A DNA stretch of 64,000 bases from Thermococcus pacificus (GTDB lineage Archaea; Methanobacteriota_B; Thermococci; Thermococcales; Thermococcaceae): the NCBI RefSeq assembly GCF_002214485.1, contig NZ_CP015102.1:186001-250000 (forward strand), in the 5' to 3' direction. The notes under the pieces were generated by a model, which was given only the letters and a program-made list of their open reading frames with translations, searched no databases and was not told the origin of the DNA. Below, piece after piece: positions 51,088 to 54,928 of this stretch. A program made the translations under genes and the position numbers. Each line of letters begins with the position of its first letter. Within the stretch, counting starts at the first letter, position 1.

Positions 51088-51150
51088 GACCGATGATGGC
51101 AACAGGGTAGCTACCGAATCTTGATGTGGAAGCCGTTCCAGTCTGAGGTC
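51088..51150 (+). ncRNA. C/D box guide RNA candidate
   Basis: Order of elements: stem GACC (51088-51091), C box ATGATGG (51093-51099, one mismatch), 14-nt spacer, D' box CCGA (51114-51117), C' box TGATGTG (51122-51128), 14-nt spacer, D box CTGA (51143-51146), stem GGTC (51147-51150) exactly complementary to the first arm. A TATA box TTTATAAG (51059-51066) sits 25 bases upstream of the predicted 5' end. Size and spacing fit archaeal dual-guide 2'-O-methylation RNAs. Targets are not determined: the D guide should pair with a site containing ACTGGAACGG, the D' guide with one containing AGCTACCC. Confidence 0.7.
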
Positions 51151-54196: not shown

Positions 54197-54274
54197 GCGG
54201 TGGTAGTCTAGCCTGGTCTAGGACACCGGCCTCCCAAGCCGGTAACCCGGGTTCAAATCCCGGCCACCGCACCA
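54197..54274 (+). tRNA. tRNA-Gly (anticodon CCC)
   Basis: Acceptor GCGGTGG pairs with CCACCGC; anticodon stem CCGGC/GCCGG with loop CTCCCAA, anticodon CCC; T arm CCGGG-TTCAAAT-CCCGG; discriminator A and encoded CCA to 54274. TATA-like GCTTTTAAA at 54153-54161, start expected near 54185. No intron. Its 3' flank runs straight into the hairpin-rich segment. Confidence 0.97.
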
Positions 54275-54283
54275 CAATTCTAA

Positions 54284-54870
54284 CAAACTTCGCCTTCGCG
54301 AAGTTTGATCAAGGCTCGCATGTCATTCTTGGAGATTCTCAATTTTAAGGTTGGTTTGTTCTTTCACCTGCTGGTTCTGCAGTGTTTTACTGTGGATACA
54401 ACGCCCTTCGGGCGTTGAGAAGAGACCAAAACCTGTTTTAGCTTTCTTTTTTCCACATGCAAACCTTCTTTGGGTTTGCAATCTCAGAGAGACATGCAAA
54501 CTTGTTCTGGCATTTTGAGGAAGTTTACCCTTTGATCAAACTTTGCATGGCAAAGTTTGCTTGCTGGCGCAAAGCGTTGACGGAAAGATTGCGTGCTCGT
54601 TTAAAACGCCAAATTCTGGAGGGTGTTTATTCATCATCTGCTATCTCACAGTATTTGCCTTCCTCAAGGCGTCCTACGGACGCCAGAACAAAACGCAAAC
54701 TGCTTGAATGACTTCTTTTGAAATTAACCCACGATTTACTGGGAATTTGAGATGTGCACGCTGATGATACTGGCCAACTTAAGTGAAAAGGAACTCTTTT
54801 GGTCAAGCTTTTTCCAAAAGCTTGCTTGCGACGTTGGAGCTTTGCTCCAACGCACGGGACGACAGCCCGT
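54284..54870. repeat. Hairpin-rich segment, at least seven short-loop stem-loops
   Basis: Between the tRNA-Gly and the end of the methyltransferase gene (54275-54928, 654 bases) there is no convincing gene. Perfect stem-loops lie at 54284-54307 (10 bp, 4-nt loop), 54399-54417 (8 bp, 3), 54458-54480 (8 bp, 7), 54537-54559 (10 bp, 3), 54668-54684 (7 bp, 3), 54804-54824 (9 bp, 3) and 54832-54852 (9 bp, 3); a weaker 5-bp one is at 54854-54870. Several share CAAACTT/AAGTTTG arms and the word TTTGATCAA occurs at two of them. A spurious 84-codon frame (54457-54711) crosses three stems. Base composition is lower in GC than flanking genes. Confidence 0.7.
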
Positions 54871-54928
54871 TGAGTTTGATTAAGATTCGTGATTAGTTCC
54901 GTTCAAGCGTCTAGCATACGGAGGAGTG

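Follow-up and report, generated by a model that had tools for sequence, protein, structure and literature searches.

Palindromic arrays behind tRNA genes: a dispersed non-coding repeat family in Thermococcus and near relatives

The REP/BIME of enterobacteria and pseudomonads are extragenic palindromes that occur in many copies, form mosaics of alternating orientation, are non-autonomous and have a resident RAYT (Y1-type) transposase. The arrays described here are alike in being palindromic, extragenic, mosaic, multi-copy and non-autonomous, but their units are longer (about 260-290 bp), they are anchored at tRNA genes and Y1/RAYT is absent from the genome that carries them; they are REP/BIME-like mosaics in kind, yet the lack of RAYT and the added tRNA anchoring make them a variant distinct from REP/BIME. 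MITEs, such as those of Sulfolobus, are likewise small and non-coding, resemble inverted repeats and vary in presence or absence between genomes. Hairpins were seen at the ends of the units here. The arrays differ from MITEs in their tRNA-anchored stacking; a search confined to Y1 gave no parent transposon, and no target duplication was recognised.

Other described systems resemble the arrays in their location. The TRE retrotransposons of Dictyostelium insert at the flanks of tRNA genes of any isotype and encode their own machinery; the Thermococcus arrays show the same preference for tRNA flanks but code for nothing. Integrative elements targeted to tRNA genes bring a duplication of the tRNA 3' end and an integrase or Cas1, neither of which was found at our array, and a CRISPR array has unrelated spacers between near-identical direct repeats, whereas the spacers here are homologous. 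In Thermococcus itself, the inversions studied with IntpTN3 are bounded by two tRNA genes, in some cases unlike ones (Leu/Thr, Leu/Gly), and IntpTN3 failed to recombine unlike tRNA pairs in vitro (PMC5495485). The sites are tRNA genes in both cases, but the available part of that report takes the tRNA sequences as substrate and leaves arrays unmentioned (PMC5495485). We found no account of a tRNA-flanking hairpin family in the open-access literature, and this palindromic repeat family appears to be undescribed.

A three-unit array directly after tRNA-Gly

The array lies in a window of 64,000 nt from Thermococcus pacificus (NZ_CP015102.1, positions 186,001 to 250,000, forward strand). A sequence-only reading of this window had singled out the segment 54275-54928 for seven perfect stem-loops in fewer than 600 bases, a composition unlike the host, recurring CAAACTT and TTTGATCAA words and the lack of an evident gene. 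All seven stem-loops exist, between 54284 and 54852 (stem of at least 7 bp, loop of 3-8 nt), compared with a mean of 0.41 and a maximum of 3 in 300 dinucleotide shuffles; with stems of at least 8 bp, there are six against 0.11. Shuffled sequence of equal composition fails to give as many hairpins, and the patch is the densest 654-base tile in the window, non-overlapping tiles containing at most three. The whole segment also folds more stably than its shuffles, both as DNA (z = -6.8) and as RNA on the two strands (z = -8.0 and -9.8). Its GC content is about 44%, against about 55-58% in the surroundings, and both words are confirmed in the segment and nearly missing from the rest of the window. 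Intrinsic terminators, already doubted as a cause of such density, were rejected, as the hairpins are not accompanied by T-runs and extend over 600 bp. The features are as follows.

54197..54274, + strand: tRNA-Gly (CCC), the anchor gene (ARAGORN and Rfam)
54275..54559, + strand: unit 1, adjacent to the tRNA, with class I start CAATTCTAACAAACTTCGC... (homologous start at 16 tRNAs in the genome; copy alignment)
54284..54307, unstranded: H1, the tRNA-adjacent big hairpin CAAACTTCGC-CTTC-GCGAAGTTTG, followed by GATCAAGG (perfect stem, covariation)
54399..54417, unstranded: H2, central hairpin of unit 1, CAACGCCC-TTC-GGGCGTTG
54458..54480, unstranded: H3, with a 7-nt loop, perfect in the window copy
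54537..54559, unstranded: H4, big hairpin at the junction of units 1 and 2, with TTTGATCAA at 54531
54560..54824, + strand: unit 2, with class II start CTTGCTGGCGCAAAGCGTTGACGGAAAG...
54668..54684, unstranded: H5, central hairpin of unit 2, GGCGTCC-TAC-GGACGCC
54804..54824, unstranded: H6, big hairpin ending unit 2, CAAGCTTTT-TCC-AAAAGCTTG
54825..54894, + strand: unit 3, truncated, carrying the nested two-hairpin cassette H7/H8
54832..54852, unstranded: H7, CGTTGGAGC-TTT-GCTCCAACG
54854-54870: H8, imperfect, after H7
54895..54928, unstranded: locus-specific spacer outside the family, common only to the orthologous loci L105 and L114
54929..55537, - strand: methyltransferase-like gene (an ORF, named by reading only), anchor of the orthologous locus

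The array begins right after the CCA of tRNA-Gly, and no more of the segment than 54275-54894 belongs to it. In this and other arrays, big hairpins with AAACTTTGC or AAGCTTTT arms alternate with smaller, GC-rich central hairpins whose arms are GACGCCC, GGCGTCC, GCGCTCC or AACGCCC. The spacing of the hairpins is about 110-140 bp overall, mostly 105-115 or 135-145 bp, and separates half-units ~90-120 bp long whose orientation alternates, each turn being marked by a near-perfect hairpin of 7-10 bp with a loop of 3-4 nt. Among similar half-unit pairs (E<1e-3), 95 are in opposite orientation and 94 in the same orientation in their loci; half-units are homologous in either orientation, and a unit thus forms one long palindrome that has diverged. 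The stems, which had been thought unrelated, are recurring classes common to all copies of one repeat family. Only six of the seven perfect hairpins are conserved in other copies: the paired cells of H3 (54458-54480) amount to 45-53% there, and H3 is probably incidental. CRISPR-like or integron-like cassettes were rejected, given that the spacers are non-coding and the homologous half-units alternate in orientation.

The cassette at 54832-54870 is ~40 bp long (CGTTGGAGC..GCTCCAACG CACGGGAC..GTCCCGTTG). It was also observed in L028, L049, L075, L078 and L012, at a nearly fixed point in the arm of the class I hairpin. Elsewhere, unit junctions follow two rules, GCTTG|TTCGCC and GCTTC|AGCGCTGG. 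The start of unit 2 stands directly after the tRNA in copies L022, L023 and L025, and because units of type 2 or 3 take this place elsewhere, the window array looks stacked; its newest unit would be the one closest to the tRNA.

No conserved reading frame was found in the window array across aligned copies, which agrees with the initial impression that no gene is evident, and relatives have no intact gene at the orthologous place. The earlier suggestion of a decayed gene peppered by palindromic repeats finds no support: the 84-codon ORF at 54457-54711 and others are not open in the aligned copies, which differ by frame-breaking lengths, and the segment is itself the repeat. Of the options first proposed, two come nearest to the evidence: a structured DNA serving a role of its own, and an element placed at the 3' end of a tRNA. 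Rfam detected only tRNAs and snoRNAs and no known RNA family at the array, and such a family was rejected as its identity. A C/D box small RNA, sR22 (RF01275), is located at 51089-51148 and is unrelated to the arrays.

A repeat family tied to tRNA 3' ends

The patch belongs to a palindromic, non-coding family that is dispersed in Thermococcus and near relatives. When whole genomes were searched with the segment, T. pacificus itself had 21 places and 34 of the 36 other genomes of the genus contained matches, with no match in the other families of the genome sample; the cassette region (query 522-620) recurs most widely of all the family's modules. A genome-wide search for the hairpins, proposed earlier from the sequence, did reveal dispersed copies, with 32 occurrences of the big-hairpin pattern AARCTTYKN{3,8}MRAAGYTT in the genome against 0 for a reversed-pattern control. 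Most genomes of the genus have 6 to 55 such places. The pattern is absent from G018 and from the incomplete G083, and occurs twice in G003; these three genomes may help to locate the responsible gene. The sister genus g11 has 10-13 places in its two complete genomes, while the counts in the other sister genera are near background or ambiguous.

These places are polar with respect to tRNA genes. In T. pacificus, 25 of the 32 hairpins are found no more than 1.5 kb past the 3' end of a tRNA gene, against 1.0 for random positions; the proportions are 27 of 36 in G012, where 13 directly follow a tRNA, and 26 of 48 in G001, whose tRNA list is incomplete. Counted by gene, 25 of the 46 tRNA genes of T. 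pacificus, representing at least 14 isotypes, have an array start within ~20 nt of their 3' end. The first hairpin is at a nearly constant distance from the tRNA end, and H1-type hairpins share this distance at many tRNAs. Class I starts, (n)CAAACTTCGC-CTKC-GCGAAGTTTGATCAAGG, follow 16 tRNAs, and class II starts, (n)AGCCCTTTCTnACGAAAGCGCTGGCGGAA, follow 9, including the intron-bearing tRNA-Trp and a tRNA-Ser. Default tRNA-finding settings missed the tRNA-Trp with its intron and one tRNA-Ser, which were then recovered, and several arrays seemingly without a tRNA proved to be behind these genes. Only L063 and L064 lack a tRNA in this genome, the former with an RNA ligase gene on one side and an RNA methyltransferase gene on the other. 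The sequence common to array-bearing tRNAs of the at least 14 isotypes is limited to the T-arm.

Two array loci without a tRNA are conserved (L063, L064, L012, L015, L019, L079, L080), and their content varies among species. At L028, a single hairpin is located 5' of a tRNA-Leu gene.

The earlier idea of an element placed at a tRNA 3' end is borne out in general form, with 25 of 46 tRNAs linked to an array, but not as a classical insertion by a tRNA-directed integrase. The attachment repeat it had envisaged is not above control level: at the distal border, the longest matches to the tRNA 3' end equal those of a control with other tRNAs. No integrase or Cas1 gene was detected inside the window array. 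Given this control-level duplication and the lack of an integrase reading frame, insertion by an integrase or as a casposon was discarded. Likewise, the Y1/RAYT transposase (PF01797) is absent from the genome itself and from 46 of the 61 genomes of the genus, which excludes a resident Y1/RAYT as the mobiliser.

Filled sites, empty sites and covarying stems

The orthologous tRNA-Gly locus was identified through the flanking methyltransferase-like gene, located in 53 of the 61 genomes of the genus. In eight genomes, the distance from the tRNA-Gly CCA to this gene is 26-29 nt, an empty site; in array-filled sites, it is 658 nt (this genome), 407 nt (G009) and 193 nt (G016). The change between the filled and empty states could have run either way, as this genome and G016 have the outermost spacer in common. 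No target-site duplication was recognised on comparing filled with empty sites.

Whole units also differ between close relatives. L012 and L080, whose flanks are 97.4% identical, differ in the presence of entire units: an additional unit splits the terminal hairpin at GCGAA^GTTTG, and the opposite arm of this hairpin carries the small cassette. The units of 346 bp at two tRNA-Val genes, L025 and L049, are 98.8% identical; in L025 compared with L049, units are separated at CAAAC^TTCGC, which is the same point on the other strand. A recurrent synteny break is located exactly at tRNA-Gly. Across L081-L110, about half of the orthologous loci have an inverted tRNA-Gly and lack the transporter gene that otherwise adjoins it on the far side. 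The inverted tRNA-Gly beside the methyltransferase-like gene sometimes has a hairpin on its new 3' side.

Covariation was assessed in profile-aligned copies for which stem perfection was not a selection criterion. H1, H2, H4, H5, H6 and H7 have 85-94% Watson-Crick cells and ~100 compensatory cells, with most compensatory changes in H5. Among tRNA-sense copies only, pairing is 81-89%, against 19-35% with slid partners. The mismatches in these copies comprise 35 G.U and 33 A.C, compared with 5 and 0 in tRNA acceptor stems, a small control. G.U as frequent as A.C is unlike an RNA constraint and suggests hairpins or cruciforms formed by DNA, or else a mutational process at the DNA level; the hairpins look as if they were kept as DNA and not as sense RNA. 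Their loops are short and oriented, many of them being, on one strand, of the GNA type closed by C-G. GNA loops closed by C-G are unusually stable in DNA. The loops of AAGCTTTT hairpins in tRNA-sense copies are TCC, TCT or CCC in 19 cases and GGA in one; big-hairpin loops hold one orientation, and free loop flipping was rejected as the source of their variety.

Proposed mobile modules and competing explanations

We favour, with a probability of about 0.5, the reading that the arrays are non-autonomous mobile modules, similar to REP/BIME or MITEs, which insert at the tRNA 3' junction or in terminal hairpins. Each new unit would enter at this junction or within the hairpin that ends an established unit, older units would be displaced outward, and the hairpins would be the DNA structures recognised by the responsible machinery. 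From the filled and empty sites and the whole-unit differences with junctions inside hairpin arms, we infer that the units are mobile. Recombination among arrays and fold-back template switching may act alongside insertion, and homologous recombination between arrays together with gene conversion could explain much of the exchange.

The main rival takes these last processes as sufficient: the arrays would be passive products of homologous recombination and gene conversion among tRNA loci, tRNA genes being places of recombination in these archaea, and of fold-back template switching at hairpins, which builds inverted units and keeps stems perfect, with no transposition enzyme involved. The nearly identical unit at the two tRNA-Val genes fits this account, as do the synteny break at tRNA-Gly among relatives, the half-units inverted in alternation and the short perfect stems with variable loops; the published inversions also terminate at tRNA genes (PMC5495485). 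We nevertheless consider it rather improbable, because the single recurring break point in hairpin arms and the rule-like junctions look specific, the one orientation of big-hairpin loops in tRNA-sense copies is unlike free flipping, and the tRNAs of at least 14 isotypes behind which arrays start have only the T-arm in common.

Bolder than the mobile-module reading, and doubtful at present, is the proposal of a new class of archaeal module, which would target the 3' flank of any tRNA gene as well as hairpins of its own kind, with a putative recombinase recognising the DNA hairpins; the modules would stack into arrays, and these would then serve the tRNA-bounded inversions as recombination sites.

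Alternatively, tRNA-flank arrays could be selected as useful to the cell. They might, for instance, bind proteins or form cruciforms and thereby insulate strongly transcribed tRNA genes, stall forks or anchor the nucleoid. This seems quite unlikely: while such a role would suit the family's retention by almost every species of the genus, the fixed place behind tRNAs and covariation without strand bias, about half of the tRNAs have no array, orthologous tRNA loci are freely with or without one, and G018 has none and G003 two. A structured non-coding RNA co-transcribed with the tRNA is very improbable in view of the parity of G.U and A.C mismatches in sense copies (again with the small acceptor-stem control), the lack of an Rfam match and the freely variable number and content of units, even though the arrays lie directly downstream in tRNA orientation, are polar, fold far better than shuffles, have covarying stems and present some central loops as UNCG on the sense strand.

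An array was observed next to an archaeal phage integrase gene (PF16795) in G010, one of the array carriers (L072:1572-2435). The least credible origin, despite this neighbour, is from viruses or plasmids that had integrated at tRNA genes, which are the classical targets of integration in Thermococcus (PMC5495485), as the tRNA 3' end duplication does not exceed control, there is no reading frame, plasmid and phage records gave no match to the arrays, viral contigs contained no tRNA-adjacent hairpin (one exact pattern searched), and one module type stands behind 25 tRNAs.

About half of the tRNA 3' flanks are occupied by this repeat family in a well-studied archaeal genus. The arrays provide a system in which to ask how perfect DNA hairpins persist in organisms growing near boiling, and how tRNA genes come to be targeted by an element that codes for nothing. 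They are plausible candidate recombination sites for the tRNA-bounded inversions of Thermococcus, and attractive as substrates because IntpTN3 could not reproduce unlike-tRNA inversions on tRNA sequences alone (PMC5495485). If this is true, the arrays might explain those inversions (PMC5495485), and if a hairpin-targeting module class exists, they would be recombination sites for the inversions that shape Thermococcus chromosomes.
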